NCBI GenBank assembly: GCA_964017195.1
Contig: OZ024898.1
Coordinates: 936,001-1,000,000 of the forward strand
DNA length: 64,000 nt
Direction: 5' to 3'
Source: Siderastrea radians
Taxonomy: Eukaryota; Cnidaria; Anthozoa; Scleractinia; Rhizangiidae
Part shown: piece after piece, positions 1-45,200 of the stretch
How the letters are laid out: every line of letters begins with the position of its first letter
Numbering within the stretch: position 1 is the first letter of the stretch
Program-made: the position numbers and the translations under genes
Notes under the pieces: model-generated
What the model saw: only the letters and a program-made list of their open reading frames with translations
Database searches by the model: none
Told to the model about the DNA's origin: nothing

Positions 1-141
1 ACTGCACGTGTTGCTCGCGCCGGCCAACTTGAGGGTGTAACCAACCTCAGGAGAATTACGAATCTGATCACCCTGGATGACCCTAACAACGCAGGCCTCG
101 ATACTGAAAACGCTAAGCGAAATAAAGTTTTGCTCGCATGA
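1..141 (+). CDS. Possible terminal coding exon of an upstream gene (partial)
   Basis: Frame 1 is open from the window edge for 46 codons and ends at TGA (139-141). The peptide runs TARVARAGQLEGVTNL... and ends AKRNKVLLA. Codon use (GCC, CTC, GAC, CTG) is richer in G and C than the AT-rich sequence that follows, and composition changes sharply just after the stop. A possible AATAAA polyadenylation signal lies at 755-760. I do not recognise the family. No start or splice acceptor is visible, so it could be the 3' exon of a gene whose body lies outside the window. An open frame of this length at an edge can also occur by chance. Confidence 0.4.
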   Translation, partial: TARVARAGQLEGVTNLRRITNLITLDDPNNAGLDTENAKRNKVLLA

Positions 142-4481: not shown

Positions 4482-4554
4482 ATGCTTGGATTATGTTACC
4501 TATGGAGTTTTATTTTCATTTCAATTCTTGGTAGTGTTTTTACAGCTGAAAAAG
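4482..4554 (+). CDS. ADAM17: ADAM17 exon 1: start codon and signal peptide
   Basis: ATG followed by [20 protein letters not shown], a typical hydrophobic signal peptide with a likely cleavage after ...FTA. Ends in phase 1 at a consensus GTAAGT donor. This start was chosen because it is the only ATG giving a signal sequence that joins in frame to the next exon. Confidence 0.85.
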
Positions 4555-19500: not shown

Positions 19501-22500
19501 AGAACCTTAAATCAAATCAAAAGCAGTTTCCTCTGCTCTGCATCTATAATGATGGGACACCTATATAAACTAAAACTGTCACAATGTGCAGTTCCAGAGA
19601 GGGTAGGATCTTTAAAGGAAAGTATGAAGCTAAACCGGAATTTCAGAGGGTTGAGGTGTTCAAACCAAAAAACCATCTCTGAAGGTATGGATACTTTCTT
19701 GAACCACATGATGGTGTACCTTTATCAGTCATTGTGACGTGCAAAGTACATTCTCTTAGAGAATGTAATATTTTGTACTGCCTTTCGTGAAAGATGGTTG
19801 TTAGTTAATAGCAGTGCTGTATTTTGATAGAACTTACTTTACATACCAGTCAGAGAGATGGACGGGTTGACTTAAGGTGGTCGGAAAAACTTATCCGAAC
19901 ATTCCATTATTAGAGATGGATCAGTTGACCCAAGGTGGGTGGTACAATGCTAGCTAATTCACAGTTTTTAACCTACAGTTTTAATATATTTTTAGGAAGA
20001 AGAAATATAGCTTTTGTGGCCATGATTCAGTGCATTCAACTGTGTACTACAAGAAAGATGTTGGTGAGAAAGTTTACATGTACTTGGCTTCTTTGTTTTC
20101 TGTAGCCTCCAACGCAGACGTTCTTTTTGCTCGTCACACTCTCCTCCCCACATCCGTGGGGGAGAAATGGATTGCGTGACAAACCCTAAGAACATCTTTG
20201 TTAGAGGCTATGTTTTCTGTGGCTAACATTTGACAACGTGCAATTTCTCTCTCTAGCTCCAGACTACAGATCCGAGCGTAAGAGACGTGCAGTAAATCCA
20301 ACACTAATAAGATGTAGGCTTGCTTTGGTGGCTGATTACAGGTTTTACCAAGAAATGGGGCAGAACGACTTAAGGAAAAGCATCAATTATATGGTAACTG
20401 AGTCTATTTTAATTGTTAGTGATAATAAGTGTATTGATTGCGGGACAAAGCATGGTGTACAACAAGGACTATATGACTGAGTCCCCACAACTCATTTATG
20501 AGAGCTGGATTCTACCTGTAAAAACCAGGTGTATGTTAACTGAGGCTCCACTAGGAGAACAGAACGGAACAGCTTAACTATTTAGATCAAGAGGTAACTG
20601 AGCAAGAAATACGTCAAGCGGTGAAGAAATTGAAGAATAAGAAATCGCCATTTGTTGACAAAATAAGAAATGAAATGATCAAAGCGAGCCTTGAATCGCT
20701 TATGCCTATTTACATCAAACTTTTTAATCTCATTTTACAATCTGGAAAAATGCCAGATATTTGGTGTCAAGGCCTTATAACCCCAATCTACAAATCGGGT
20801 GACAAGAGTGATCCAACAAACTATAGAGGCATATGTGTATCGAGTTGCCTTGGAAAACTGTTTTGTTCCATTTTAAATCAAAGACTATACTTGTATTTTA
20901 GAGAAAACAAGATATTACACAATTCCCAAATTGGCTTTGTACCTGAAAATCGTACTGCAGACCATGTTTTCACTCTAAGGACCCTAATAGATAAATATGT
21001 CCTCTACCATAAAGAAAAAGTCTATGCTTGTTTCGTAGATTTTCGTAAAGCTTTCGACTCTGTTTGGCACGAGGGATTGTTTTACAAGCTGCTCAAAATC
21101 AACATAGGAGGACATTTCTACAATCTGATCAAAAGCCTTTATTGCAATTCAACATGTTCCATTAGAATCAGAGAAAACAAAACTCGATCTTTCTCATACT
21201 CAAGAGGTATACGTCAAGGATGTATTTTAAGTCCTCTTTTATTTAACCTTTATATAAACAATTTGCCGTATTTATTCGAAAACACGCTGTCTGATCCATT
21301 TGTTCTTCAAATGGAACAAAAATAAATTCACTATTGTATGCAGATGATTTGATCATCCTATAAAGATCCAAAACAGGATTACAAAACTGTTTAAACACTC
21401 TCTCTTCATATTGCAAAACATGGATGCTAAAAGTCAATCCCAAGAAAACAAAAATAATGATTTTCCAAAAACGCCCAAGGAAATCCGTTGACATCAACTT
21501 CAACATAGGCACCGAGCCAATTGAAATTGTTCAAGAATACACCTATTTAGGTACACGTTTAACTCCAACGGGAAACTTTACTCTTGCAGTCGAACACTTG
21601 AAAGAAAAAGCCCTGTACGCCTTTGCTAGTATACGAAAACAAACACTTCTCAATAGACTTAATCCCAATACCGCATCTCAGATTTTTGACACAATGATAT
21701 TTCCGATCTTAAGCTACAACAGTGAGATATGGGGGATGTACACTAAGCAGAATTTTAAAGCGTGGGATAGTTCCCCAATAGAAAAAATTCATCTCAAATT
21801 TTGTAAACACTACTTAGAAGTAAACAATAAGGCCTCTAACGTAGCTTGCAGAGCCGAACTTGGAAGATTACCGCCAATAATCCCAATTAATCAGAAAATT
21901 ATGAAATATTTTGTTTATCTAAACAACAAAGATAATGACTCTATAGTCAAACAATCTTTCCTCATGTCGAAGAATCTACATTTCATTAATAACTCCGGAT
22001 TTTATTCCAATTTTATGAACTTGATAGAACAATATCATCTATCCAATTTAGATCCTGAATCTTTAGATAATGATAGAATTAGGCGATATACAACTAATAT
22101 GAAAGAGAAATATATATCCTCCTGGTGACACAGCCTTGAACATTCAAAGAAATTAGAATTTTATAAAGTTTTTAAGGATGACTACGTTACATCTGATTAT
22201 TTAAACCAGCTAAGAAACTTTAATGAAAGACGAAATTTAGTGAAGTTTAGAGTAAGTAGTCACAAACTTATGATTGAACTAGGTCGATATCAAACCGATC
22301 ATATGCCCAGAGAAACTAGATTATGTCCATTATGTAAATCAAATCAAGTAGAAAATGAAACTCATTTCTTGTTGCAATGTAGCAAATACTCTCTGCAGAG
22401 GCAGACATTCTTCAATCGAATCAATGAAATAATACCTGATATTGAAAGGAAATCAACCTCAGAAAGCATAAAACTTCTCATGAACTCTAACGACTATCAT

Positions 22501-22745
22501 GTGAATAAGCTAGTAATGAAGTTTATTTCCTTGTGTATGAATATACGTGATACATTGTTATTATCAAGTGAAAGTGATGTAACTTAGGTTCATTAGCATA
22601 ATATTGCAGTAATATTAGTTTTGTTTTGTTATTACCGGTAATTACTATAAATATGCTTTTGCAATACTGTAAAATCTTGCGGTCATGCAAATAAAGCAAT
22701 TTACTACTACTACCACTACTACTACCACTACCACTACCACTACCA

Positions 22746-22781
<36 letters not shown>

Positions 22782-23823
22782 ATAATAATCTGAAAGGAGG
22801 AGGTGGTGTGGATCCTCATAATTCTTTAACATCTGCATCCTGTGCATCTTCAGAGCATTTTCCGCAAAAAAAACCCAGAAAAAAATGCCTAATATTAGTG
22901 CTAAAGCAGCTGCTTTCCATCCTCACAAACATAAAAGCCGAAGAGATTGATTATTTTGAAGCAGTTTTTCTCCTGAACATCGACCAAAACACACCGCTTT
23001 GTTTGGGAGCGATTTTAAACCTCCAGGTGTTCCACGCACCTTTTGGTGAAGAGCCTGGGCACTAGTTTTGTTGTTACACTGATTTCTATTACACGAAAAG
23101 CATTGACATTTCAGTTAGCAGTTGTTGCTAAGAAACTGCGTTTGATGACTACTTGCGCGAGAAAAATTGAATGTCTTGTCCTCTTTTGCTCGTTCGGCTT
23201 CTTAAAGAATCATCTGCGGTTTATAGTATGGATAAATTTGTCCTCAAAGAGACGAAGAAGAAGGATCCTCACTTAGCGGTTCACATAACAGCAAAACATT
23301 GGAAAGGCACAATTATCGATATTATAAATAATTGCTTGAATTTTTGCTTAATCCACGTGTTTTCCACATAATTTTATTTTTCTGCATAATATACCTAAAA
23401 ATTCCCGCATAATTTTTTAGTTTTTCCGCACCCTATCAGATGGTCTGTAATGAAACGGTTTTATTCAGTATATTCACTAGGTGGCCCTTCACCTGCAAAA
23501 CCTAAAATTACAATACAACACACATTTTAATGAATCTATTTACAATAAAACTTAGAGACTAATTAAAATGGGATTAAAAAGACTTCAACCTATGGAGAAA
23601 ATCACAAGAATGGAAAAATAAACAAGCACATAATTAAGAAATATCTCTGAATGTAACCGTTTTTTCTGGCAGTCGCCTGATGATTGCCTCGCATGAGGCA
23701 TGAAACTCAGAGTAGCGAGTAAATGTCCATAAAAACTAACTCTTGAATTCTTACTGTTATTCACCGCTCTAGTTCAGCTATTGAGCACTTTGTAGTAGAT
23801 GAGAATTTCACTCCATTTTTTGG

Positions 23824-23862
<39 letters not shown>

Positions 23863-24181
23863 TATATATATATAATCTTAGCAAGAAATGTAATCTGTGT
23901 CTTCACGAAAAGTTTGTAATAATCTGTAGAAAAGATCTATGTACCCTAAATAAGCGAAACAAATTAGCGAGTTCATGCCCTCATCGTAATAGATATGTCC
24001 TTAAGAACTTTAGAATAACATAACGCAACTACCTAGCAACCATCTGTATATAGACGCCAGCATTCGAATTTAACGGTCATTCGCCAATATTGCCTGAAGA
24101 GTGTGGTCATCCTTTGGCCATACGAAACAGAGCTGTAGCAATAAAGCGATGAAATACATCTGAAGCCTGGAATAATTTTCG

Positions 24182-24235
<54 letters not shown>

Positions 24236-27200
24236 CTGCTAATGTGCAGAATGGTTTTCAGAGAGTGCTCAACTTTTCAGGAGCAGTAAATATTATAACG
24301 AAAATTATTCCAGACTCTTCAGAGTGAGCAATCATGAAACAGTCTTGTCGGGATGAAAGTGTAGCTTTTTTCTATTTTCAAAATATACATTACACTCTAC
24401 TTTAACGTATCGAGCACTGTACTTCGGAAAATTGAAACACAAAATTTCTATATAATTTTATATATATATATAATAAGATTTTACTGTTAGATCAGTAAAA
24501 TATTGTTAATGGAACGTGACACTCATTCTCAGTGAGCCTTTCATGGCACGTTCGCTATCAATAGAACTACTATGCAGTTGGGATCCCAAGGTCACTAAAA
24601 TCAATAGCTCCGTTGTAGCTAGACCTACAACATTATGGCTTTGTTTCTAGTTAGCTTTTTCGTACGTTTTATTGCATTGGTCGATAGCATTAAGGACCTA
24701 TTCATAACTAAGATAGTACACGTGTAAGGCCAAGCTGTTGTATAGTACAGCCTTAACTACTGGCTACGTTAGCAGACACTGTCTAGATATAAAAGCTTAA
24801 GCAACCCGTTCAAGGTTCAATTTGTAATTCTCTTGTGCAGTGCAGCCAGTGTTTTGTCAATTTAGCAAAAACTTTTCCCTCCCTCCCTCCCTTTGGCAAT
24901 GGGTTGGCTATGTTATTTGTGCTTCAATAAACTAGGGTCACTCCTGCGTGGTGCGGTTAAGTCTGCGCAGCGACTTCCCCCAAGCTTGTCGGCTTCGTTG
25001 CCTTTATGCATCGCCTGCTAACCAATACTCTTGTCTGATCCAGCACGTGCTGTCTAGCATTCACCTCGTAGTGCTGGGGAGATAAGTGAGGTGTTTTTGT
25101 CACGCAAATCGGAAGTCGCATAGACTAACCAACTGCAAGGCAGTATTCCCCTCAATATCGCCATCCTGAGAGTGTTTTACTTTGTTTCGCGTGTCACGCG
25201 CTTATTTATAGCCTATTGCAGTTGCGCTACGTTCCTCAGGAACAGTGACATTAATATATATATATATATCTACCTGGATTTTTGAAAATGGTACTGCTCG
25301 GTTGAGGTGTCTGAGCGGTGTGTCACGAGCACTTTTTTGTCGTTGAGAAACTATCTCCAAAGTAGGCAATATAAAAATTATGAGTGCCAGGAGTCCTTTT
25401 TTCTTCTGCCCTCTCTTCTCTTTTCTCTCCCGTGTGGTTTCTAGGCTCATGGGAGTAAAAAAAAACCAGTTTCGGTGTCGTTCCGGTGTCGTTCCGGTGA
25501 AGATGGGCAAATCTTCAGGAGCCACCTTTTCAAAAATCCAGGTAGATATATATATATATATATTTATTAAAAACTGGACTAGGTATATTGGATTTCTAGC
25601 ATTTTGATTGGCTCAACGGAGCTAGGCTATCAGCTCATATACCTGCTCCGACCAAATATGGTCAATGAACACTCAACAACAAAATGAACAAATGAGCTGA
25701 AAGTTTTTTCCTCGCGAGCAACCCAGCGAGAAAAATGGACGAGAAAAATCACTTGCCAGCAAATTTAAATTAAGCAGAAATTGCAACAACGTCACCAACA
25801 GCGTCGTCTAACACAAGTCAAAATTGTTTGCAGAAACTGTGCAGAAATAGAAATTTAAGCATTAAGCGTTGTGTTTACAATTAATTTCTTTCATCGATCG
25901 TCACGTCGATCATTGAAATTGAGCAAACGGTAGGTATTATCAGAAAGGATTTCCACTTCAAAATATCAAGACAAGACATAAAATAAAACACAATGAAATG
26001 GGGCTAGAGCATTTAATAAAAACTATCACACATTCATGGCGAGTCGGTGCGAAAATCATGAAGTAGTCTAAACAAGTGCTAAAAAAAATACAGCTGCAAA
26101 CTACCAAGAAGGAAGGAAGGGCGAGATTGTTTTTCGGCTTTAACATGCAAAATCAGGACACTGGTTTACCTGCACTTGTTGTAGCTCTGTGTTCCAACAG
26201 GTCCAAATGCTCAGATAGAAATTGGATGCCATGTAAACGGAGTTGAATCGCTTTTCCAGTTGTTTGAATGTTGTTTTTACCATTCCGTCCGCAACCTCTA
26301 AACCGAGAACAACTGCATTTTGCGCTTTGCGTTTAACAAACTATGATGGTGAATTCTAATGTTCCTCGCTACAGTAATCTTGCTTCTGAGCTGCATAGAA
26401 AATACCTTTTCAAGTTCAACTGTTCAAATTTGTTCTGTCTTCAGTTCGATCAAACACGCACATGATGGCTCCGTTGTGCGAACAGATTACAAACTTGTTC
26501 AGTTTCAACTCCAGCAGCTATATGGTGAAATTGTACAGCTTCAATCCGCTTTGAACGATGATTACAACAATGTTCAGGAAAAATCAAACGTACCATATAT
26601 ATTTCAGAGCCAATAATTAGAAGATTTTTTTCCAAAACGTGTGCTTCTTTGTTCACTTTCGAGCAGTTTTCATTGATTCATTCAGCTTTGCAATGAAACG
26701 GTGCAACACTTCGCAAGGTTTTGGCGCCTTTTCCGTTCAGTCATGTGATCGATTCTTGTTCCGCTTAAATTTCTTTTCTCATTTTTCCCGTTCTTTCTGA
26801 TTTTTTTTTTAATAGTGGTTAAGTTTTTTAATAAAACAATTATTCTACTCGAGCTTGCTGGATATCAAATGATTATAACCAACTCGGCGCTACGCGCCTC
26901 GTTGGTTATCTATCATTCGATATCCAGCGCGCCCTCGTAGAATAATTGTTAAATATATAGAGCGGTTTTCAAATGAGTGTCGTAAAACCAAAACCAAAGT
27001 AATTACCCCAGCCAATCACAACAAACAGAAATTACCCAATCAACCAATCAGAACTGGAAGCAAATACATGTCACCGGCGTCAAGCGCGGGAAAACGCGTG
27101 CGAGCAAGTCGCGATTGGTTTGAGTTTTACTTCTGATTGGTGGAGAAAGTGGCGCGAAGTTTTTCAACCAATCACAGAGCGAAGTAAAGCAAAACCAAAG

Positions 27201-30200
27201 CAAAACGCGAATTACTTTCGACACTCAAATGAAAACCGCTCTATATATATATATAATTATATATATATACTCATTGAAGGAAAGCGAGGACGAACAACTT
27301 CTGACGACTAAAAAGTTAAAAAATTTAATAAGAAATAAAAACGTTTCGGTCTTAGACCTTCATCAGTTACATGAAAAATTGAACTTATCAAATCTACCTT
27401 AAATAAGATTACAGTACAAAACAAGACGCAAAATACAATTAAACGCTATGAGTTACGTAACCGGCGTGATTATAACAATACTAAAACGAGGATAAGTGAC
27501 ACTAATCAAAAACATTCAAAAATAAAAACAATACAGTACAATGATTATATAACGAAAAAAGGAAAACTAAACAATACTAACAATTAAACGTAATTACAAG
27601 GTGTAGATACAGGTACAACACTAAATAAATGAACGATACAAGGCAAAAATTTAACAAAAGACCGGAAATATGCTACTATAAAAATAATAATTAACAAAAG
27701 ATGACAGGTAAGGCTAAAAACTAAAAACTACTAATTCAAAAAAGATGACATTTGCAATGTGGCAAAAGAAAGAGCAGTCAAAAGGAAAGCAACCTACGTT
27801 TACGCAAACATGGATCATAACAAAATCCCAAATTGAGGCCTTTGGAGCCCCAAAGGGCCGATAGACAACAAAATCCCTGGGGGGGCCCTTAAACAATGAC
27901 CGTAATAAGTTCCCCGGACAGGGCCTTTGAGTATACCCAACACCTAAGAGGCTGACAAAATCCAAGAAAAAGGCCTTTGAACGGCCATATATCACGAACG
28001 AAGAATCGCGAAAAGAAAATTAATTATAACAAATTCTATTCCTAGAATGAAATTCTTTTCTTTTATTTAAACCATGGGGTGCCAAAGAGAACAGCTGAGC
28101 ACTCCAACAAGCCTCCTTTGTAATTAAAAGCCTGTCGATCTCGTCCGAGTTGTTTGGGGCCTGCACCTGATCAATACATTGAAACGAAAAATCATCTAAA
28201 ATGTGTGAAGTTTTGTTGAAATGCACTGCTACTTCACAAGTTGTTTTGTTTGTGAGCATAGCAGACTTGTGATTACGAAACCTAATTCGTAATCCTTTCG
28301 TAATCACAAGTCTGCTATGCTCAAACAAAACAACTTGTGAAGTAGATTTGAGAAGTTCAATTTTTCATGCAACTGATGAAGGTCTAAGACCGAAACGTTT
28401 TTATTTCTTATTAAATTTTTTAACTTTTTAGTCGTCAGAAGTTGTCCGTCCTCGCTTTCCTTCAACGAGTTTTAATTCCATGCAGTGAGGCTTGGACTGT
28501 GAATCTTTGATCCTCCTGATGCAGTGGCATTCTATGTTGGCCTGAGGCAACCATGAACTGTTTTCAATTTTATATATATAGAATATATAACAGTAAGAAT
28601 TCAAGAGTTAGTTTTTATGGACATTTACTCGCTACTGTTATTCACCGCTCTAGTTCAGCTATTGAGCACTTTGTAGTAGATGACATAAATTCAATCTGCT
28701 AATGTGCAGAATGGTTTTCAGACAGCACCCAACTTTTCAGGAGCAGTAAATATTATAACGAAAATTATTCCAGGCTTCAGATGTATTTCATCGCTTTATT
28801 GCTACAGCTCTGTTTCGTATGGCCAAAGGATGACCACACTGGAATAATTTTCGTTATAATATATATATATATATATATATGTATAAGTAGGTTTTTGGAG
28901 CTTGACTATTTGATCTTGAACATTTATTGCTACTCAGAGTTTTATGCTTACAAAGCAATCATCAGGCAACTGCCAAAATTAACTAATACATGCAAAGATA
29001 TAGAAAACTTGGGACAATGCTTACAAAAATCGCATAACATTTCCAGCAGTGTCTAGTCACTAAGTTAGGGCGGTTTTCAATAGGAACTTTCTTGAGTGTC
29101 TGCAACTTGATATCAGTTCATTTCTTTTGTTCAGAGTGGACATTTCGGGTTTACAAATTATAAAATACTTTTTCCACAAACACAAGTTGCATTTCTTACA
29201 ATGTACCGTTGCAAATCATGTTACAATCGACCATTGAAAATCTTAAATAAACCATTTAAACAAGTGTGCGCGCTAAATAGCCTGTGCGGTGTACATGAAA
29301 ACTGCACGCGCAGCATTACCTGCGCGGTGTTGTTTAACTAAATTTAAGAAAATTTAAGAATGTATTTTTTTTTGTGCCTGCAGGTGGAAATTAGTTCATT
29401 CCGCTTGTTTAGCGTTGCCAGATGTGGTTTAGTAATGATAAAAAATTTCTCAGTTAAGCATAGATTGCATCGCTTTGTGATGTTCATGTAGGCCTTTGCT
29501 TTAGCAAGGATTTTCCATTTTATCGTGCAGTTTTCTCGCTTGCTTTTAAGCTGCCGAAGGTGCTTGCTTAGTCCAGTGTCACTCTTTCGCTTCTCGTTTT
29601 TAAAAGACACCTGGTGGTTTCTCCATCTGGTTTTGAATTCCATTGATGTTATTCCTACATAAGTCTCAGTTCTATTCTTTGACTTAACAGTTGCCTGGCA
29701 AACAACTTCCTTTGTCAGGCATGCACCTTCTTGCAGGCAGGCAGGCAGGCACCTTTGAGTGCCCTTTAGAAGGTGCATGCCTGACAAAGAAAGTTGTTTA
29801 CCGGGCAACTGTTAAGGTGGCTCCCTAGAGTTTCTACAAAAGTGACTATACGAACTGACAAGACTTGCAAAAGAAGCCCTAGTTCTGTTGTCTTGCAATC
29901 TTTGTTCCTGAATTTTACCAATAAGGTTGCCAACATAATTACCCTTATTTTCCAGGTTTTGCTTCTTAGGCATAGGCCGTTGCCATGACAACAAAGCATC
30001 TCAAGAATGACAGATATTTCCCATTAATTCGTCTTTTTTCTTAAATATTTTGATTTTCCCTCGGTGAAATTTTTTTGACTAACATTTTGCATATATGGGG
30101 TCGTTCAGACGGATTCACCAATATCACGTGATTTCTTATTTTTAACCATTAAACTGGATTGCACTGACAGAATTTTTCCAAAAAATAATATGTGAAAGGT

Positions 30201-33200
30201 AGCGTTAGTATCTCAAATTGTGCAAAATTAAAAAAAAATTCACCAAAGGAAACGCGGGAAAATTTACTGTTAACTTTGCTTTTTTTGGCTATGCTGACAT
30301 CATGAATATCAGGAAAAACCTACGATTTTATGTCAGCGCGCGCAGATTACTACAGCTCACAACATCAGCGCACGCGCAGTCATAAAACTATAGGGAGCCA
30401 CCTTAAGTCGAATACAACGGATTCAAATCAAATGGGCTTAAAATTACAATCGACACGAACAAAAGAATTCGTAGACTTCTTAGACGTGACCTTCGACCTC
30501 ACAAGCAGCAGCTATAAACCATACATGAAACCCAACAACAAATTATTGTACGTCTACCAGCAGAGTAACCATCCCCCAGCATTACTAAAGAACATCCCGC
30601 TGAACAGCTATAAAAGGCTAATAAACATTTCATCCAGTAAAGAAGTCTTCGAGGCAGCCATCACTCCCTACCAAAAAGCACTTGAAGAAAGCGGATGTGA
30701 TCACAAGCTCACATACCACCCAGAGGCACAGCAAACGAGAAATAAAAGAAAACGAAAAGGGAACATTACAATTGGTACAACCTGCCAAGGAATTCAAACC
30801 TAAAAACCAACCTCGGAAGAAAGTTTTTGTGTATCATTGACAAATGCTTCCCCAAGATCCACCCGCTACACAAGATCTTCAACAGACATACGCTAAAGCT
30901 CAGCTACTCGTGCATGCCAAACATGAAATCTGCGTATCACATCACACAACAAAAGCATCCTTTCAAATGTCACACCAGCGCCAACTCAACAATCATGATG
31001 GGTGCAACTGCAGGAAAAAAATGAATGTCCCCTTGAATTTCAATGCCTCCAAACTAATGTGGTGTACCAAGCAACGGTGACAAGTGAAGCTTCAACAGAA
31101 TCATACCTGGGACTTGCAACAAACTTCAAAGAACGCTACAGAAACCACAACGCATCCTTTCGACACACAAGCAAAAGAAATGAAACTGAACTGTGAAAAC
31201 ACATACGGACTCTAAAAGACGAGAAAAAGCCCTTTAAAATTAAATGGAAAGTACTAAAAAAGTGTCAACCCTACAATAACATTAGCAAGAAATGTAATTT
31301 ATGTCTTCACGAAAAGTTTATTATCATCTGTAAGAAAGATATATGCAGCTTAAACAAACAAAATGAATTAGCAAGTTCATGCCCCCACAGAAATAGATAT
31401 GTCCTCAAGAACTTTAAAGTAACGAAATGTAACAACTGCTACCCAGCAAGCATATCTTGTATTTAACCGCCAGCATTCAAATTAACGGTCATTTGAGTAA
31501 ATTGCCTGAAGAGTGTGGTCATCTTTTGACCATACGAAACAGAACTGTAGCAATAAATCGATGAAATACTCTCGAAGCCTGGAACCTTTTTGAATAATTT
31601 ATATATATAGGAGGAGGAGCACAAGGTATATACTAGTTACAACATTCAAATTTAAAATTCGGGTCAATGGTAAATATATTTGACATGCCATGACGTAGAG
31701 CTAAAATAAGATGAAAGTAAGTAGGCTATAGAAATATCTTAATGTGGATTATAAAAATTATACAAGGCTGTTTATAGTAGGTTTGAGTCTATGAATCCAG
31801 TAATTTTCCCGAGCTCTTCTGATATCTTGATTAGGATTTCTAACTTTTTCAATAACAGTTAATTTAAGATATTTAACTCCACAGTTTTTAAAGTGCCTGA
31901 CAGTTGGAATATTTTTATGTCCATCATTAATGTCACTGTGGTGTTGATTTGCCCAGCGGTGAATGGGGTTTCTTGTTTCACCTATATACTGATTATTGCA
32001 TTTGCTGCATTCGGTCAAATATTTGATGTTACTAGTTCGGCACGTTGTGCATTGTTGTAGTGTAATTTTTTCTCCTGTAGTAGTGCTTGTCACTGTCTGT
32101 GTAAAATGTCCACATGTCTTGCAGCATGCACATCTTGTGTCCACTCCACAGGGCCTGAATTCAGAGCTATGATATTGTGTTGGCCTTATTTTGTTGCTTG
32201 TGTTTGTTCAAAAAGTAAATATATATATACCACTTGAAAAATAAATCCCACTTGAAAAATATCACGAAAACAAAAGAAAACAAAAGATAAATATATAATT
32301 ATGTACACGTTTTTCCAGTCACAATTTTTTTGAAAACAGGTGTATAATTATGTATAATATAAAATTAATTACAAATTTAATCTTGTTTTGGCCTTCGTTT
32401 CCAATAGTATCTTTGTTTCATTACTAAAAATACTAAAAACAGGACAACTCCTTAGCGAATGTGGATATTTATTAAAAAGGAAAGTGGCTTGGTCCTGAAA
32501 TGTGTGTTATGAAATGGCAGTATTTCAATCAACTGGCCTCAAATCACACCCATTAATATAAATTGCATAATATACCTGCTGTTGGATGCAAACAAATTTA
32601 CCTGGCTAATGGATATGCTAAAATAATCATACAATCTGACCAAAAAAAAGAAAGAAGATAAAAAGTCCTATCTAAAACTTGGAATTACTAGAAAAGTTCC
32701 TTTTATATTTATTTATCACTAATATTAATTTGTAAGTTGGAAACAACAAAAACTTGGCTTAGCTGCGACTTTACCTTTCAGCGATAGAGCCATTGAGTTT
32801 AGTTGTTTGATTGTGTTTTGCTAGATTGGAGTGGCAGACCGTGTGGATGCAATTTATCGGAGCACAGACTGGTCCAGTGAATACACGGGATATGGCTTTG
32901 AAATTGCAAAAGTATGCATTAATAATATGCTTGCCAGTCAACCCTTTTACTCCCAAGAGTGCCCAAAATGAGAATTCAAGACAAGTCCCAAATTTCATTT
33001 TGCAAAATGCTTGAATATAAATGTGAAAGTACTGATAAAGAGGTTTCATTTGAGTGGTCACAACAAATGGTTTCATCCACAGATTCAACAGTTAAAACCA
33101 CTTAAAAATGTCTCCCTCCACAATTGACTCAGTTAATGTTACAATGACACTGTCAAGTGCCCGAGGAATTATACCAGAAAAGAAAATTTTCATTAACTAA

Positions 33201-36200
33201 TTCATTATCAAGATTTAAATAGGATACCTCCTTGATTGAAATTTAGGCAAGCTTTTAACACAACTGATGTGTCTTTCCTTAGGTGATTGTTCACAAGGAA
33301 AGTCACCCCTCGAGTGCGAACCACTACAACAAGCTCCTTCCAAAAGATCCGTGGCTCATTAAGGATCTCTTACGGGTATGATGAGATAATTCAGAGCAAA
33401 CAATGATTAAAAATAATCTGTGGCAGCTCTTTTGAAGCATTTTTTTTGGGGGTGTAAAATGTTTTCTTATATGCAGCATAACAAGAGCTATTAAGCTATT
33501 TCCCCGTTTGTGATACAGTAAAAAGTTTATTGTTATGATACCAACTATGTGCAGTGCATATTATCTAAAATTGCGACTCTTGATGAGGTCGGCAAGTACA
33601 TACTCCTGGGTGCATGGAAACAATTTAATTCACTCTACAATGTATGATACCAAAAATAAAAAATAAATTAGAAAACCATCAAACAAACAAATTAATTCAA
33701 CCACTTGTTAGCGTCTTTCATAATTTACAGTATTTACATGTAATCTCGTTAGAAATGCTAAAATGCAAATGATACAGCAATGCGCAGGGGCCATGCTACA
33801 GCAATGTAGTTTTTGAGTGCTAATTATGTAATCTTTACTGTGGTTATTTGTTAATAAAGTTTTGGTTATAAAAAAAATGATACAGCAATGCACCAGTATC
33901 GCAGAGGCCATGGGTTCAAATCCCGTTGTAGCCTTGAAATCTTTTTTTTTTTCAGGCTAAAAAAGCAATATTGCTTAAATTGCTACGCACTGCAAAGATC
34001 ATTCTACTCATTGCACGTTAATACAGCAGTTCATATAAAAATTATATGTCTTTCATATATACATAACATCATCCATTCCACCTGCAGGATTTAAAAGAAC
34101 CCAAAATTGACCTGCTCCCAACATCTTAAGGCTTCATAGCTCAGTTGGTAGAGCAACGCACCAGTATTGCGGAGGCCATGGGTTTGAATCCCATTGTAGC
34201 CTTGAAATCTTTTTTTCAGGCTAAAAAGCAATTGCTTAAATTGCTACGCACTGTGAAGATCATTCCACTCATTTCATGTTAATGCCCTTAAAGGTATTAT
34301 TGTTGTTACAGTTTTTCATAAACCCTTCAATTAAAACCTCTCAACTGGAAGATTTAAATCTTTTTTTTTTCCCACAGACATTCAGTCTATCAAAGCAGTG
34401 GAAGGAGTATTGTTTAGCCCATTTGTTTACGTATCAAGACTTTGCTGATGGTGTCATTGGTCTAGCTTATGTTGGCAACCCAAAACGAAATGCAGTTGGA
34501 GGAATTTGCACTGAAGGTAATCTGTCAGAAGTCATTTTCTCTTGTTATTTTCAATCTGGGTCTTTCCACTTAAGGTATTGAAAAAGTCCTAGATCTAGAA
34601 GCTAATACATCTTGAAAAAGTCCTAGATCTAGACCTAATATATAATATTAATAATAATTTCTTAATCGTGCACAAAGCAAACCAAATTTTCTCAGAGTCG
34701 TGGCATTTTGGCAGGCTTTACCATATGTCTTCTGATCCAAGCATAGATCATGATTTAGCTTTGTCATTTACACTGTATGTGTCTGTGGTGGTGTAGTGGT
34801 TAGTACATTGGATTTCAGATCCGAAATGGTGGTTCGACGCCCAGTCCCTGCCATCGTGTTGTTTCCTTAGACAAGAAACTTTACCACATATTGTCTCTCT
34901 GTACTCTGTACTGTGTCTCCACCTTTTTATATGATAACTTTTGATTGCTTCCGCTCTTGTTAATAGATTACTTCACGGATAACAATTGGCTTTACCTCAA
35001 CACTGGGCTGAGTAGCAGTGTGAACTGGGGACGAAAACTGCTGACAGAAGAGGCAGACATTGTGACTGCTCATGGTATTTTTTATGTGATATAGCAAACA
35101 CGAGAAAGAGTGTTTCATCTGGATATCCAAACCCTGAGAAGTGGGTTGAAAAAACGAGGTGCAGCCAAGTTTTTTTGACCGACTTCGAGGTGTTTGGATA
35201 GCTGATGAGACACTCTTTCGGGTTTTTGATATGGCTTCTCAAACCATTCATAATTCTTGGAGAAATTCAAAGGAATTCGCAAAATTTTATGCTAATTAAG
35301 ATCCGGTATCCAAACCACCGTCACGGCAGTGATTTCCTTTGTTTTCTCTTTATGAATTATTAAGGAGTTTGAGAATTTATAGTAATAATAAGTCTTTATT
35401 CATCAGATAAGATACATATCAGATGTTACAATAAAAATGACAAGAAATAAGTGCAAAAAATACAGTACGGTTTTTAGCTGATTAAACACTGCAGCATTTT
35501 TTAAATTTTTAGGGTTTCTGATGCAGCATTTATTTAAGGGCGGCATTTATTCGAGTAAATACAGCATATAAGTGAACTAAATTCTAAAAATTTCTAAGAT
35601 CTAATATTTATATAACTAGGTTAGGCATCATTTATCCACTGCAACATTTACAAATGAAGCCCCTGCCCTATTCATTGCTATTCTTGTCTACAATTGTATC
35701 GCATCTTCTGATCTCATCTTTTCACCTTAATTTTGGCTACCCTCGTGAATGACTTATGTGTTACATGCACTGTTAAATCCCAGTCACTGGAAAAAAATTC
35801 AGTGTTACAGGTGGAATTTGAACCCATGACATTCCTCTACTATCTGAGCTGCAAATCCACAATGTGTGGCTCCAGAAAATATCCACATCCCCACCACAGA
35901 GGGTCACTGGAAATTCTGAGGGGGGGAGGGAGGGGGTCTTAAAGGCCAAGATTTTTAAAGGAAAGCATGAGCCTAAACTGGAATTTCCAGAGGGGTGGGG
36001 TGGGGGTCCAAACCCAAAAAAACCCTCTGTAGGGGGAGTATGGATTTTTTCTGGAACAACACAATGGGAAAAGCATATGGATGACTCTCACTTGATTTTG
36101 TCTGTGCAAGGGATATTTCAGCAACGAACGTGCCTAGCATGTGTACATTCTATATTAGAATCATCCTCCGATGAATCAAGTAATTTTTGCTACACTGATA

Positions 36201-39200
36201 AAAACTCATCCTGTTTCCCACTGTTTGCTTCTTCTTCCCCATCTGTCCTCTACCATTTTTGCTGCATATCCTCATGTCAAAATTTATATTTTATTATTTA
36301 TTGCCTTTTTTTCTCTTCCTTTTCTAATTTATGCCACCTGGAACAATTGCAACTTTCATAAGAAATTGGTAAGTTGTTAGTTGTATTTCTAATTTAAGAA
36401 AAAGGCAACCTTTTCTGTGTTATGTAGTAAGTAAGTGAAAACATGAAAGGAAGTTTGCGATTGTGGTGAATGGTATCGAATCAAAGAGCCAAAGGAAAGT
36501 GTTTCCTGTTCTGTTTAAAATTCCCTTGAACTTTCATGAAAGGTAGTATTACTGTTTTTAAATTTGTAGTAATAGATACATGTACACTCAAACTAATCTT
36601 CTGTTTCCACAGTCTTATTGTAGATAGCTTTTAACCAATTATCACAGTGCTTATTTCATGGAAGTTTGAGTGGATGCTTATTTCTGTAGACTTTTAGTTA
36701 GGGACATAGCATATATAATAATAACAATAATAATTAAAATTTATATAGTGCCTAATTAGTCTCCACGTCAGCTCTAGGCACTTCACAAAATGTTGAGAAT
36801 AAATTGAAAAGCTAAATTAATGCATAAACAAAATGTAACCCTACTAAGAATATGCTTTTTTAAAAAGATAAGTCTTATGTTTAGACCTATGCACCTTGTT
36901 GATTTTTTAATGTTTCATACCTAATGTTTGACCAGGAAATTATTACTGTTATTTATTACCATTATGACATCACACTTAACTAGTCTGTGAAAACTGCTTT
37001 CAGGGCACAATTTTGGCAGTGAGCATGATCCAGAAGCTGGCGAATGTGCACCAGGTGATACAAAGGCTGAGGGCGGCAAATATATCATGTATCCTGCCTC
37101 TGTCAGTGGACAACTAAAGAACAACAAGGTACGCACATCCCGGAGGTGGGGGGGGGGGGAGGCACTTGACCCACTTTTGGGTGTAGGGGTGCCACTGAGG
37201 GTATGTATGAACCTTGACCCTGTTTAGGACAAAAAAGGCCTAAGTTTCGGACAACACCCTCTATGTTAGATCCCTGTTTTGGACAAATGACAAAATAACA
37301 CTCTCTTGTTTTAAGGACAGTGCCTCCAAATACAGAGGTATTTTTGCAAAGGTTATGGCTATGGGGGAAAGGTAGATCTAAGCAAGTGTTGTTGGAATCT
37401 AAAAAGAAAAATGTGGGTCACCATACATTTTTCAGAGATAATTAAGCAAACATAATTCTAAAAGAGCTTTAAAATACAAAGAATGTATGGCAATTTCTTT
37501 CCAAATTTATGGTCGACTATTTCTGAAAAAATGTGTGGTAACCCACAATTTTCTTTTTGGATTCATTTCTGACAGCCCTTGCTAAGGGCTAGGTACTTTT
37601 TCCATGTAGTAATAAACTGCGCAAAAATATCTTTGTATTAGAAGGGAAATGAAACTTGAGTATCTTGGAGCAGACCAGAGATGCGCAGAACGTATGTGCA
37701 GTAACAAAAGGAGGCACTGCCCTTAAACAATTTTAAAGTGTTTTAAAAACCTTTCAAATGTCTCTGATCTAGGATTGCTGAATATTGGATAAGTGGTTGC
37801 CACCTTCCAATGAAACCAGTGGGTCTAACTAATTTCCTCATGCTACTGATTTACATCAGTTTTTTTGTCCTTACACAGAAGTTCTCTCCATGCAGCAAGC
37901 GTAGAATTCTTGAAGTTCTGAAATCCAAGTCAGAATTTTGTTTCACAGGTAGGACAACTCTTTCTATGTGCCCCCTGGGGATTTTTTTTCTTACTTAATG
38001 CTATATTCACCCTTTGGCACACAAAAAGAGTTCCCCCCCCCCCCCCTTAGGACTGACATAAAATAAAATGAGCACTTCGTTTTGCAAAAAGAATAAAACA
38101 CTTATTTTGGTATTTAAACAAAAGCTAACGCTTTAGAACTACACTCTTTTTTCGTTATAAGAACCATTTTTATAAGAACGTTGAGGCTGAGATTTGCCCC
38201 CAAATTTAAGAAAATGTATGGGCTAAAATAAGAACATCCTCAGGAACAAACACTTAAAATTTCAATGTTAAAACCAGCAGGGAAGTCCAATCACACTGCC
38301 TTGAAAATTAAAAGAATTGAATTACTAAGAACTCTTAAATTCCTAGACACAATTAATGGAGAATGGTGTCTTTTGTGTCTTTTATCAAATTGGGCCGACA
38401 TTATCAAAGAAGCTGCCATATCAATCACACGTAGGATCGGGCCGACAAATCTTATCGTGTAAATGGCCAAAACATGTGACCATTAAAAAAAAGCTATTGA
38501 GCAATACTCTCTGTGGTGTTTCCTGTTGTCCTGTTATTGTAGGATCCTAATGGTCTTATTATTATAATGCTGTACAAGGTGGTTCTAACATCTGAATCTG
38601 CGCATCAGACCCTAAAGCATGGCCATCAAATTAAATCTATCCAACTGTATTTTTCAAGGTTGTTCTAACTTGAAACTTTTCAAAACCTTAAGATTTTGTT
38701 TTCTTTCAGAGCCAGAAACTGCAATCTGTGGCAACTACAAGACGGAGACCAAGGCAGGTGAAGAATGTGATCCTGGAGGTATTGTTGTACCTCTAAACAC
38801 CCAGTGCTGTACAAAAGATTGCAAGCTGAAAGGCTTATGCAGGTAAGAAACTTCATTCCTTCACTAAACTAACATCTTCTCCATCTCCTCCTACTTCTTC
38901 CTTATTTTTGAAAGACATTTTATTGCAGTATTATTGTGCTACAAGGTGGCCTGTTTTTAGTAAGTCAATGCCATAGTGACTGCAATTTGAGGTGAAAGGT
39001 GGTACTTTTGGTCAAAGAAAGCCACACTAGCGAGGGTTTCAAAGATAAATACCACAAATGAACTCAAACCAGTGGAAGAAAGAGATAAACAAACATAGAG
39101 TGAAAACCTAAAATTTGAGCTCCTCTTTTTCGTGATTCAAAGATAACCGAGTTTGAGACAGCTAGTAACAAATGACTAAAAAATAATAAGCAAACCCTAG

Positions 39201-42200
39201 GGAAACAGAAACAGCTGGGGGATTGGAGTTACCCCAGGTTCCAGATCGCAGGGGATTCAAGATACCCTGGGTTCAAAATAAAGGGATATTTGAGATACCC
39301 CTTGTTAGAGATAGCAGGAGTTTCGAGATACCGTAGGCTCATCAAGACGGCAGGGGATTTGAGATACGATGGGTTATAAATACTGGGTTCGAAATACCGA
39401 GAGATTTGAGGTCCTCTTGTTCAAAACAGCGGGGGATTCGAGATATCGCGGGTGGAGATGGCAGGGGATTTGAGATCCCCTGGGTTTGAAACTGTCATAT
39501 AAATTTCTTTAATCTCTGTGATCCCTAACACACAAACATTCCAGGATAATATATTTTCTGATGATTCTTCACAATTTTTTTTCGGGTGTCTTTCTGTTTA
39601 GTGACGGCTATGACTCGCCTTGCTGTAAGAACTGTACATATCATAACACAAAAGGAACGAAATGCCGCGATGCTGACACAGCAAGATGTAAGAAAGAGTC
39701 CTACTGTGATGGTAAAAGTCACAAGTGTCCTGCTCCTGAACCCATGAGTGATGGAACAGAATGTATAGACAGGTTGGTGTTCCTGTGGAGTGGGAAAAGC
39801 ACTAGCCTGCAATGCAGGTGTGTTTTGGGGGCCAGCGAACGCTATTGCCGCCATCTTGGCAGGGCTAAAAATTAACTTCAGTGCTTGGTCGCCACTCGGG
39901 CCAGTATCCCTGAATTCTTAGTGGCCCAGGCCAAAATAAAGTGGCCCTCAAATTTTCTCTGCTAATATAACACAAAACATTTTTGCTCGAATAAACGCCT
40001 CACGGATGTTTCAGCCCGTGTTTTCTAGTAGGGTGTTCGACTGACATGCCAAAAGAAATCTGCTTGATCTTAACATGGTCTTGAAAGCTCACATTTGCCA
40101 GTGTACTGTCGAGAAATTGGTTAAATTGTTATAATAATAAAAACTTTGTTCGGTCTGTCTTGGGAATCATTCGTCTCGTTCTTCCTTGCCCTATAGGTCA
40201 GAACCTCTAGGTTCTGACTTGGTCCATAAACTCCCAAAGATTAACCGGACCATTTTTTCCTAATACGGACGAAACGATCTTCTCAACGCCTATAAACTAC
40301 AGTATCACGATTCTCAGTTTCTTTCGAATGCTTTTGAATTCAGCTGAAAAGTAAGCCTATTATATCAAGTAGTGTTGAGTGATTTTGTCGATATTCATGT
40401 TTGAAAACATACCGCATCTCGTGTCAACAAAATCAAAATGGCGTCTACATATCGGAGCGATCTAAAAACTCGATCACGAACGGTTTGAATTTTGCACTTT
40501 AGAACGAAACTTTTACTAACAATTGATGAACTAAGAGTTGAGGAAAGAAAGGAAAGAAAAGAAAGGTACTCCAAGCAAGGACATTTTCTGTTATTGTGAT
40601 TGTTATTCTTTTCGTACTTCTCAAATCGTAGTCGCCCTTCGGGCGATCAAACCTTAACTTTTAGTGGCCCTGGACAATTCTTAGTCGCCATGGGCGACCG
40701 TGCGACCGCCAAGTTTTAACCCTGTCTTGGGTTTTAAAAGAAGAGAAAGATTGGGGAGAGTAGGAAAAGCAACCAAGTGGGAGGGGGTTAGCAAATCCAA
40801 CATGACGGCGATGCTCTCTCCTCCGCAGAGGCCTCCTACGATTAACCGAGATTTTGGCACTTGCGCGTCCCCAGAAAACTTAAGCATTGCAGACTAGAAC
40901 AGCACTCGCAAATTTAATGTAAGGGTTGTTGTGTCCTGGGGAGGCAAGAAACTTTGTTGTGGACCAATCTTTGTTTTCATCAGCAGTCTTTGATCTCTGC
41001 GCTGTTATGAATTATTGAAAGGTACGATAGATTGAAAGATTATGTAGCAGATACGGAGGAGAATGTTGAAAGTCGAGGGAAATTCCTTTTTGAAAAACAA
41101 CAAATTTACAGACGTTAGTCTGTACAGTATGTTACTACAGACATGTTGCTTTCTATCTAAATCTAATAAAAGTTTAGAAGTTAGTTTCAAAAAGTGTTTA
41201 GGCTCAAATTACTCATGTGGTGTTCTTTTGGGAGGTTGTTCCATTCCTTTCCTGCAGCATACTTGAATGTAGATTAGCCCATTGCAGATTTTGTTTTAGG
41301 CAAATGGATTTCTCTGCCGTCTCTTAGAGTCTTACCACGGAGTTCAGATTTAACGTATATGCATCTCTATTGATCTGTTTAGCATTCAACTTCAGCTGCG
41401 TGATAAGATTTATTTGTCTTATCGGGATAGACTTAAAAAGTCTGCGCTTCTTGATTGTGCTCGTTACTTTGGGGATTTTATTATACCGGGGTTCGTTATA
41501 TCAGGTCAGTTCTGTTCTATGCATTTTACTGTTAGTTTGGCCGTGTTGAAGGATATCATTTGTTATACCGGGGACTGTGGGACTTTGTTTCGGATTATTT
41601 CAATGACTCTTGTAATTATAAACAATTTCCTAGAAAAGCAAAATTGGATCCCACATTTTGGGAGCTTAATTTTAACAGTTTATCTGTTCAGTCAGTGGCC
41701 AAGAAGATGTCCAATTTTATATTTTGAATTGAAATTTTCGTATTTCATGTACGTTTTTAGTGTTTATTATCCCTTCAACTCATCTTATATTTTTAATCTT
41801 CGTTAATATTAAGACTGTAGATTAGTACAATACCCCTCAAGCATGTTAATTGCTCTAATTACTGATCCTGTTTAAATAAAGGATCTACTACTACCACTAC
41901 TACTTCCGATAATTCTCATTATGCATGGAGAATCCTTCTCTTTAAGCCACTCACTTTTGTGTCTGATTATTTTAAGGGGCACCTGTTCCAGTGGCACATG
42001 CAAATCATTCTGCGAGGCAAACAATCTTGAGCCGTGCAAATGCTCCAAGGTGGAGGATGCTTGTAAAGTTTGCTGCAAGAATGGCGACGGCTGTCAACCA
42101 TTCAGAAACAGTACGACTGGCGAGACATATTTTGTTCCTGATGGGCGCTCCTGTCAAAGCGAAGAACAACAAGGGGCTTGTGTTGGGGTACTGAACTCCT

Positions 42201-45200
42201 ATAAAATGCTCTTAACCCTTTAAGCCCCAATATCAACATCCATATTCTCCCCACTATTCTCCTTATAGTTTTTATGTTACTAGTTGGGAGAATTTGATTA
42301 AAAAATCAAGACATTTGATCATTGGTGATCATTTTCTTTATTCTCAAGACCTGTATGGTTGATCAAGTAGTAATACTGTAAGGAGAAATTAGATGCTTGT
42401 CACTATTGGGGGCCGAAAGGGTTAAAGGGGCTACCTTGTGGTGAAACCATGATCAATTTTAATGTTTCCCCGAGACACATGGGAAGAACAGTTGAATCCA
42501 TTCCTTTGGTATCAAGGTAGTAATCCTGTGGTATTCCTGTGGTATCAAGGTAGTAATCCTGTGGTATTCCTGTGGTATCAAGGTGGTACTCATTTCCTGT
42601 GGTGCTGTTTATTATGTTGTACAATTTGGTTCAAACTTTTGAGTTTGTGGATGAAATCCGAAAGTGCCGTGGAAGCTACTGAGCATTACTTAGTCTTTCC
42701 CGTAGTGCTGTTTATTATGCTATACAATTTGGTTCAAACTTTTGAGTCTATTGATGGGCTCCTAAAGTGTGACCATTTAAATGAAAGCTGCTGAGCAGTA
42801 CTTTCCTGTGGTGCTGTTTATTGTGCTGTGTAAGGTGGTTCTAACTTTTGAGTCTATAGATGAAATCATTAAATGTGACCATTCAAATGAAAGCTACTGA
42901 GCAGTACTTTCCTGTGGTGCAGTTTGTTATGTTGTACAATTTGGTTCAAGCTGTTGAGTCTATTGATGAAATCCTAAAGTGTGACAATTCAAATGAAAGC
43001 TACTGAGCAGTACTTTCCTGTGGTGCAGTTTGTTGTGTTGCACAATTTGGTTCAAACTTTTAAGTCTGTGGATGAAATCAAATGAAAGCCACCGAGCAGT
43101 ACTTTCCTGTGGTGCTGTTTGTTATGCTGTACAAGGTTATTCCAACTTTTGAGTCTGTGGGTGAAATCAACTGAAAGCTACTTGAAAGCTACTGAGCAGT
43201 GCTTTCGTGTGGTGCTGTTTGTTACAGTATGCTGTATGAAGTGTTTCAAACTTTTGAGTTTGTCTGTCGATTAAATCCTCAATTGTGCAGTTGGAGTTAA
43301 TAAATTGCGTATGATATATTACAGCTTATATCCAAGCCTTAACATTGTGTCGAGATTCGCTGTTTCCAAGTGATAATATCCTTATATATGTAACTAAAAA
43401 AGTTGGTGAAATACGTTTTCTTACCAGGGCGAGTGCAAGAAAGCTCGTGACTTGATAGAGAGGTTCTGGACATTCTTGACATCCCTGGACAGCAATATAG
43501 TCGCTCAGTTTATGAAGGACAATTTGGCGGGCACAGTTGTGGTTTTCTCCTTACTGATTTGGATTCCTGCAAGTTGTTACATCAACCGCCTGGTAGGTTT
43601 AGCACTTTCTTTTCTTTTCAAACATCTTTTCACCTGTCTGTGCACTAACTTCTTTGCGGACGGAGAAAAGCTTCAACCTCGGACAAAACTCTTGACACAG
43701 CTCCGCCTGTTTTCCAATATCAACGCCACAATTAGACACCGCGAGGCAGGTACAAATTGCCCCCTCCCCATCCCCGTACGGTGTTGTTTTGGCCATGATG
43801 CTTGCTCATACAAATCCTGTGGTCTTCAAAACAACATGGAAAGAGGGGAGGGGAGGGGGAGTACAGACACTTTTGCAGTAGTGTGAGAGGTTTTACTAAA
43901 GACAGTAGAAAAGTACGGGCGTGTTTTCAACTTGTATCAAGTTAGTTTTGTCTGAGGTTTGTAGCGTATGGTTTTGTTGTTATTCATTTTTCGATTTTTT
44001 ATTTTTGTAGGATAACAAACGAGACAAGCAAGAAGCATTAGAAGCGGAATGGAGAGATATCAAGGTATTTTCTTTGACTTGCATTTTTAGTTTCCTAACT
44101 CGTGTTATAACGTACACACTCCTACAGGGGTTACTTCGTGACGAATATCACGTTTTTGGGACGAAACTAATCACAAGGTACCTTTTCTCGTTTCTTGTAC
44201 ACGATCGAAAGGCTCCTAGGACATCAATTTTTTTTTTAGACTACGGGTAATCTCTAATTTTGGCGAGCGGGCGAAATACACACACACGCGCGTGCGAAAT
44301 TTCGAGGATACCCGACGCGACCCGACCCGTCGCGTCTCCTCGAAATTTCGCGCGCGCGCGTGTGTGTATTTCGCCCGCCCGCCAAAATTAGAGATTACCC
44401 GCAGTCTAAAAAAAAATTGATGTCCTAGGAGCCTTTCGATCGTGTAAAAGAAACGAGAAAAGGTACCTTGTGATTAGTTTCGTCGCCAAAATTAGAGACT
44501 ACTCGCAGTCTAGTTTTTTCCATGTTGCAATCCAATTCCATTTGAGCCATCCGTAACCAAAAACTCTTAATTTGCTGTTTCAGAAAAGTGAAAAAGTGTT
44601 TAAAACTATTAATACTGACTGAATCCTTCTTTTTGAGTTTCCTTTGATTCTTTGAACCCTTAAAACCCTAAATGTGACGAAAGTGAAATTTCTCTGTACA
44701 TTCTCACTACTCGTTCAAACATTCAAGTGATGAGAATAAAGAAAGTGATCACCAAGGATAAGATGTCTTGATATTTAGACAAATTCTCCTTACTAGTTCC
44801 GTAAAAAATGTATAGACAACAGTTAGGAGAATATGCATTTTGATATCCGGGCTTAAAGGTTAACCTTTCACCTCCAATTGCAACAGAGATCGAAATAGAA
44901 ATATTCTAAACTAGAAATTCTCTTAGGTATCCCGAATGTCTTAACGTATCTCTCAATTTTTCCTGAAGATAGCCGTCCTAACATCGTTTAACGAATTCAT
45001 AACGAATACTAACGTTACTGACTTATATTAACGATTTTCGTTCTTCGAAGGTCTAACCTCTTAAGAATCTCTCTCAATGGTATCTTGCAAGGGTATTGTA
45101 TCCAAAGTGATTGCCAAAGATGTTCCGAAGATCTTAACTCGTACGCGTATGTTACATTTTGTGTTATTTTTCTGAACGCATTCGTAAGGAAAACTTCGAA

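Follow-up and report, generated by a model that had tools for sequence, protein, structure and literature searches.

In the ADAM17 gene of the stony coral Siderastrea radians, the catalytic glutamate (Glu) of the protease appears to be supplied by an exon of only six nucleotides (nt). The gene lies intact on the plus strand at 4482-45564 of a 64,000-nt stretch of contig OZ024898.1 (assembly GCA_964017195.1, positions 936,001 to 1,000,000), the whole of which we call the window; a script-checked translation of its 20 exons gives 753 amino acids and no internal stops. Very probably, exon 12 of this gene is a 6-nt microexon carrying the catalytic Glu, is constitutive or nearly so, and predates the split between cnidarians and bilaterians. 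It would be spliced between exons 11 and 13 in most or all messages to yield an active protease, and these 6 nt would sit between the same two introns in other cnidarians, chelicerates and probably molluscs. Microexons and exons with distant branch points are already known; what is unusual here is a 6-nt exon that holds a catalytic residue, is seemingly very old and is missing from several public gene models.

The elements around the proposed exon are arranged as follows.

34967-35074, plus strand: exon 11, ending GCT CAT G, that is, the codon of the first zinc-binding His plus one base (phase 1)
35075-35080, plus strand: exon 11 donor GTATTT, 6.6 bits on a matrix built from the gene itself
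36363-36368, plus strand: proposed exon 12, AAATTG, which completes the catalytic Glu codon begun by the final base of exon 11, encodes the Ile that follows and supplies one base to start the Gly codon
36369-36374, plus strand: microexon donor GTAAGT, 7.3 bits, against 1.8-11.1 for the gene's 17 other donors
37004-37128, plus strand: exon 13, preceded by TTTCAG and beginning GG CAC, encoding the second and third zinc-binding His and the Met-turn

Re-reading the window confirmed the positions and letters that an earlier note on this DNA had assigned to exon 11, AAATTG and exon 13. When all exons are translated, inclusion of AAATTG gives HEIGH in a protein of 753 amino acids, whereas its omission gives HGH in one of 751, with the frame open to the stop; the spliced translation therefore agrees with the same note that direct joining of exons 11 and 13 stays in frame and loses the Glu. 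The zinc site HEXXHXXGXXH (here HEXGHN[FW]GSEHD) is present with the 6-nt exon only. With its length of 6 nt, phase 1-1, preserved frame, and AG and GT sites, exon 12 has the structure of a microexon. In HEXXH metalloproteases of the M12B family, catalysis is lost once the Glu is gone and zinc-binding His one and two no longer stand i,i+4 apart, and on this knowledge the skipped form would be catalytically dead.

To place AAATTG among its competitors, the 1929 bases between exons 11 and 13, less 30 bases at each end, were scanned with a matrix drawn from the gene's other 17 introns, a small number. Seven AG-N6-GT arrangements were present, of which AAATTG was the best at 8.1 bits and the next, encoding HDTWH, reached 2.0. 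Among 5000 dinucleotide shuffles, an arrangement encoding any E-X-G arose in 843, and in 90 with a splice score at least as high as that observed; for E-I-G the corresponding counts were 75 and 3. It is very improbable that the Glu codon comes from elsewhere in the intron, although two other arrangements that could provide one are present there. One is AAAAAG at 36399, which requires a GC donor and would give HEKGH. The other is the following.

35139-35144, plus strand: rival 6-nt site AAGTGG (HEVGH), preceded by 64 nt of intron, followed by the donor GTTGAA and located in an inverted repeat

The earlier note had called the latter the sole other fitting arrangement, which is correct for GT donors but not once a GC donor is admitted, and its description of the site as having a poor donor, little upstream intron and an inverted-repeat location was accurate on all three counts. 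As an exon this site was rejected: it scores -5.0 bits against 8.1, has an AG-free zone of 28 against 182 nt and sits in the repeat. Neither Val nor Lys, the residues that the two arrangements would place after Glu, occurs at that position in any of 219 HE-bearing relatives. A longer exon offers no solution either, as no forward frame of 35075-37003 contains an unbroken HE[ILVFM]G, E[ILFVM]GH or AHE.

The region upstream of the microexon is distinguished by a long tract without AG, a feature not included in the 8.1-bit score and more telling than it.

36181-36362, plus strand: AG exclusion zone of 182 nt, 70% pyrimidine, closed by the microexon AG at 36361-36362 and with no other AG within
36195-36199, plus strand: candidate distant branch point CTGAT by consensus match, with its A at 36198, 164 nt from the AG

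This zone ranks first in length among those of the 3758 AGs on the plus strand of the window, and when the region was shuffled 2000 times an AG-free gap of at least 182 nt arose somewhere in 4 cases, in a test that does not require the gap to end at the microexon AG. At 182 nt it exceeds the minimum of 150 nt that characterizes exons with distant branch points, and it contains pyrimidine runs at 36228-36240 and 36304-36325. Other branch-point-like candidates, likewise matched by consensus, lie 154 nt (A 36208), 88 nt and 35 nt (CTAAT, A 36327) upstream, among others. Recognition probably combines the good donor with pyrimidine-rich sequence that follows a branch point, perhaps a distant one, such that U2AF and the branch point would act further upstream and scanning over the AG-free zone would lead to use of the first AG downstream. 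TGC motifs are present upstream of the microexon, but these and the other binding-motif matches around it carry no weight.

The residues found in related proteins are consistent with the proposed exon. Our set comprised 228 relatives, from sources clustered at 90% identity so that one form can hide the other; the first protein search listed 120 of 861 matches. HEIGH was found in ten of the relatives listed (Montipora, Oculina, Pocillopora, Acropora digitifera, P0001, P0002, P0003, P0005, P0009 and P0013), and HEFGH in the named anemones Nematostella, Actinia and Exaiptasia. Across the 219 of the 228 that bear HE, the residue after Glu is Leu in 131, Phe in 77, Ile in 10 and Ser in 1. The ten closest intact relatives carry Ile, as AAATTG predicts, and there is good support for the earlier note's central claim, that the HEXXH Glu is supplied by a microexon. 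The six proteins with P numbers are coral-like, and their longest contigs measure 2.0-4.1 kilobases (kb); given a gene span of 41 kb here, they are most likely spliced complementary DNA (cDNA). All six include the two residues, which suggests that exon 12 is included in messenger RNA. Within the same set, P0012 bears the name of the sponge Haliclona caerulea yet resembles anemone proteins (HEFGHNFGSDHD, near Actinia), which suggests a mixed sample; it was counted among the 228 only.

Seven of the 228 relatives show exact loss of the two residues, reading HGH.

P0125, P0126, P0127, P0128 and P0134: three proteins from ticks, one from a spider and one from a sea spider
P0122: a snail, Bulinus truncatus, with two copies in one model
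P0121: a cnidarian-like protein, probably cnidarian

P0121 and P0122 emerged from a search designed to favour skipping, in which the query lacked the two residues; it listed 20 matches, all of them about 413-1314 amino acids long, and no coral protein with HGH was among them. P0121 is an EukProt entry tagged GoldUCD, which we take to derive from a jellyfish genome, and its best matches within the relative set are cnidarian or anemone-like. A search with four variants of the HGH junction, limited to the best 120 of 1048 matches, listed HGH in six: P0122, Haemaphysalis, Ixodes (RefSeq isoform X4, in a cluster of 14), Rhipicephalus, Argiope and Nymphon. Nymphon, Argiope and the ticks Haemaphysalis, Ixodes and Rhipicephalus belong to Chelicerata and Bulinus to Mollusca; the HGH species span these two groups in addition to the probable cnidarian. 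Two further models, both from Hexacorallia, are mis-built at the exon 11-13 junction: P0015 (Actinostola) has AHGCPGH, as might arise from an acceptor shifted by 9 bases ahead of GG CAC, and P0028 (Acropora cervicornis) jumps from inside exon 11 to HNFG and is mis-built over a longer stretch. Eight of these nine affected models lie on contigs of at least 0.67 megabases (Mb), which identifies them as genome gene models, and the ninth, P0121, lacks contig data and is named like a genome model. The short-contig sources lgn, ena and jgi contribute none of the nine.

Aligned with one copy each, the HGH models keep the three zinc-binding His and the Met-turn. The five chelicerates match Tribolium (HEFGH) at 29, 29, 29, 29 and 28 of 30 residues flanking the gap, compared with 64-70% elsewhere in the catalytic domain. 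Such flanks would not be expected of an enzyme that had been dead since the ancestor of chelicerates, and so in this group the exon has probably been missed by annotation rather than lost. That separate lineages omit the same 6 bases would be most simply explained by their having the same 6-nt exon, and one study of human micro-exons describes how aligners lose reads over tiny exons and standard mapping of RNA sequencing (RNA-seq) data performs poorly (PMC4317164). It is doubtful, by comparison, that the microexon is real in corals while the chelicerate and snail HGH represent a true loss of Glu unrelated to it. All five chelicerate-like proteins in the set are without the residues, in a search that favoured such forms, and the snail copies are divergent; against a true loss stand the near-identity of the chelicerate flanks to those of an insect, the retained zinc ligands and Met-turn, and the fact that the same two residues are missing in three separate lineages. 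Taken with the missed-exon explanation, these proteins would make the microexon older than the cnidarian-bilaterian split, a dating drawn from gene models rather than from DNA: a search for the relatives' DNA gave no relative among viral contigs and, among genome contigs, one chance Flavobacterium locus that was not used.

Several points weigh against an ancient exon that is nearly always included. The last 20 bases before the microexon AG score 0.8 bits, and only one of the gene's 17 other acceptors is lower (leave-one-out range -0.5 to 13.2); in published work, weak splice sites and long AG exclusion zones are both more typical of alternative exons (PMC1431707, PMC4317164). Real isoforms might lie behind the HGH models, and the search with junction variants favours skip forms. 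In Bulinus, the copy that was aligned agrees with Tribolium at only 13 of the 30 flanking residues and at 23% elsewhere in the domain; it may be decaying or fast-evolving. P0121, the model with no contig data, matches at 19 of 30 and has one changed motif residue (GSNHD). Ordinary HE proteins also have a better conserved flank (63-73% against 43-54%), so that this contrast alone proves little for the chelicerates. Finally, the 219 relatives that keep HE are seen as proteins, not as exon structures.

Some of the same features invite a different reading of the exon, in which its use is regulated: inclusion would give active ADAM17, skipping would give a complete protein with a broken zinc site, and control would act through the AG exclusion zone. 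Skipping is exactly in frame, the 182-nt zone with its two pyrimidine runs accompanies a weak proximal acceptor, and HGH forms do exist as gene models, the Ixodes isoform X4 included. Two papers provide human data for comparison. Exons with AG zones of at least 150 nt (165 of 67,334) are cassette exons in 32.5% of cases against 19.8% overall, and a small tested group of large-zone exons is regulated by PTB (PMC1431707). Human micro-exons of up to 51 nt are about 81% constitutive, a share that drops with size; strong splice sites and short introns are common among those in constitutive use, which exon 12 does not resemble (PMC4317164). The cis features therefore lean weakly to regulation, whereas the transcript-like evidence is of inclusion: all six cDNA-like coral-like proteins carry the residues, the skip-favouring search matched no coral HGH protein, and the short-contig sources contribute none of the HGH proteins listed. 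On this balance a regulated microexon is unlikely, and the earlier note's interpretation stands in part, with the microexon supplying the Glu but the suggested active and dead forms unsupported by the coral proteins. A broader version, in which an ancient 6-nt exon serves as an on/off switch for ADAM17 across animals, with the skipped dead form competing for substrates or partners and the whole overlooked as mapping and gene prediction drop 6-nt exons, is an improbable extension.

Among known systems, vertebrate microexons are the closest in size. Irimia 2014 and Torres-Mendez 2019 are reportedly studies of these, and the SRRM4/eMIC-dependent neural microexons are characterized by neural inclusion and dependence on the eMIC protein. 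The near-constitutive microexon proposed here belongs to the same ADAM17 region as an exon that one published passage assigns to the zinc-binding domain. As described in the literature (Li 2015, PMC4317164; PMC13149111), vertebrate microexons are, like exon 12, tiny, in frame, set between longer introns and poorly mapped, with a typical length of 3-15 nt that brackets the 6 nt seen here; they mainly shape tissue-specific protein interactions, whereas the coral exon holds an indispensable catalytic residue, and a protein made without it should be inactive. Distant-branch-point exons, as described in Gooding 2006 (PMC1431707), share with exon 12 a long AG-free zone (182 nt here), a branch-point-like motif and pyrimidine-rich sequence near the 5' end of that zone; they differ in that the coral branch point is a candidate only, with nearer candidates present, the exon is 6 nt long and the species is not human. 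No ADAM17 or ADAM10 microexon is named in the titles and abstract openings of the open-access papers listed, and in PMC4633719 and PMC12308364 the words 'ADAM17' and 'microexon' occur at unrelated places in the text.

If the proposed microexon is real and old, the catalytic residue of a central signalling protease hangs on six bases kept since before corals and bilaterians separated. Some publicly available ADAM17 models, from ticks, one spider, one sea spider, one snail and one cnidarian-like species, would then wrongly look dead, which would affect studies that read activity from sequence. Exon 12 would also provide a clean natural case for the recognition of a 6-nt exon and a test bed for an on/off splice switch.

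The surrounding gene model was built by placing exons with tblastn, using P0001, P0002 and P0004 as guides, and by setting boundaries by eye before the script check.

Exons 1-10, plus strand: 4482-4554, 7238-7358, 7455-7588, 11620-11708, 19126-19226, 19996-20063, 20257-20393, 32825-32911, 33283-33375, 34378-34516
Exons 11-20, plus strand: 34967-35074, 36363-36368, 37004-37128, 37879-37948, 38710-38842, 39602-39772, 41977-42187, 43428-43592, 44011-44064, 45388-45564

Introns begin with GT in 18 of 19 cases and with GC in intron 2, and all 19 end with AG. The Pfam families PF00200 (Disintegrin, 38.2 bits against a cut-off of 35.1), PF16698 (ADAM17_MPD, 30.9 against 26.2) and Reprolysin (above cut-off) were identified, with the propeptide PF01562 just under its cut-off (21.0 against 23.7 bits). 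For the peptide encoded by exons 11-12-13, the E values are 5e-25 to 2e-23 with human ADAM17 structures and about 2e-12 with ADAM10, which places it closer to ADAM17; the full model is 63-72% identical to four named stony corals, 76% to P0001 and 69-76% to the six coral-like proteins. This evidence bears on whether the gene might be a pseudogene, or a paralogue without activity, in which HGH is the true reading. Direct joining of exons 11 and 13 does preserve the frame, but 20 in-frame exons, 753 amino acids, the main domains and a HEIGH microexon that chance produced in 3 of 5000 shuffles leave that idea with almost no credence, and the copy looks functional, given use of exon 12. A scan for bacterial promoters and terminators found nothing and is irrelevant to an animal gene.

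Several introns hold features of their own. Intron 2 (7359-7454) is only 96 nt long and pairs its GC donor, AG|GCAAGT, with an ordinary AG acceptor. Just inside intron 11 lie nested inverted repeats at 35091-35232 (arms of 29 and 32 nt) with the look of a small hairpin element, and another inverted-repeat pair spans 35860-36066. The 12.4-kb intron 7 (20394-32824) contains a reverse transcriptase domain, RVT_1, at 20555-21322, continued below cut-off at 21364-22125, and, on the minus strand at 31761-32207, a GIY-YIG domain, a combination of reverse transcriptase and GIY-YIG as in retroelement insertions. A second RVT_1 fragment is found downstream of the ADAM17 gene, at 51573-52244 on the plus strand.

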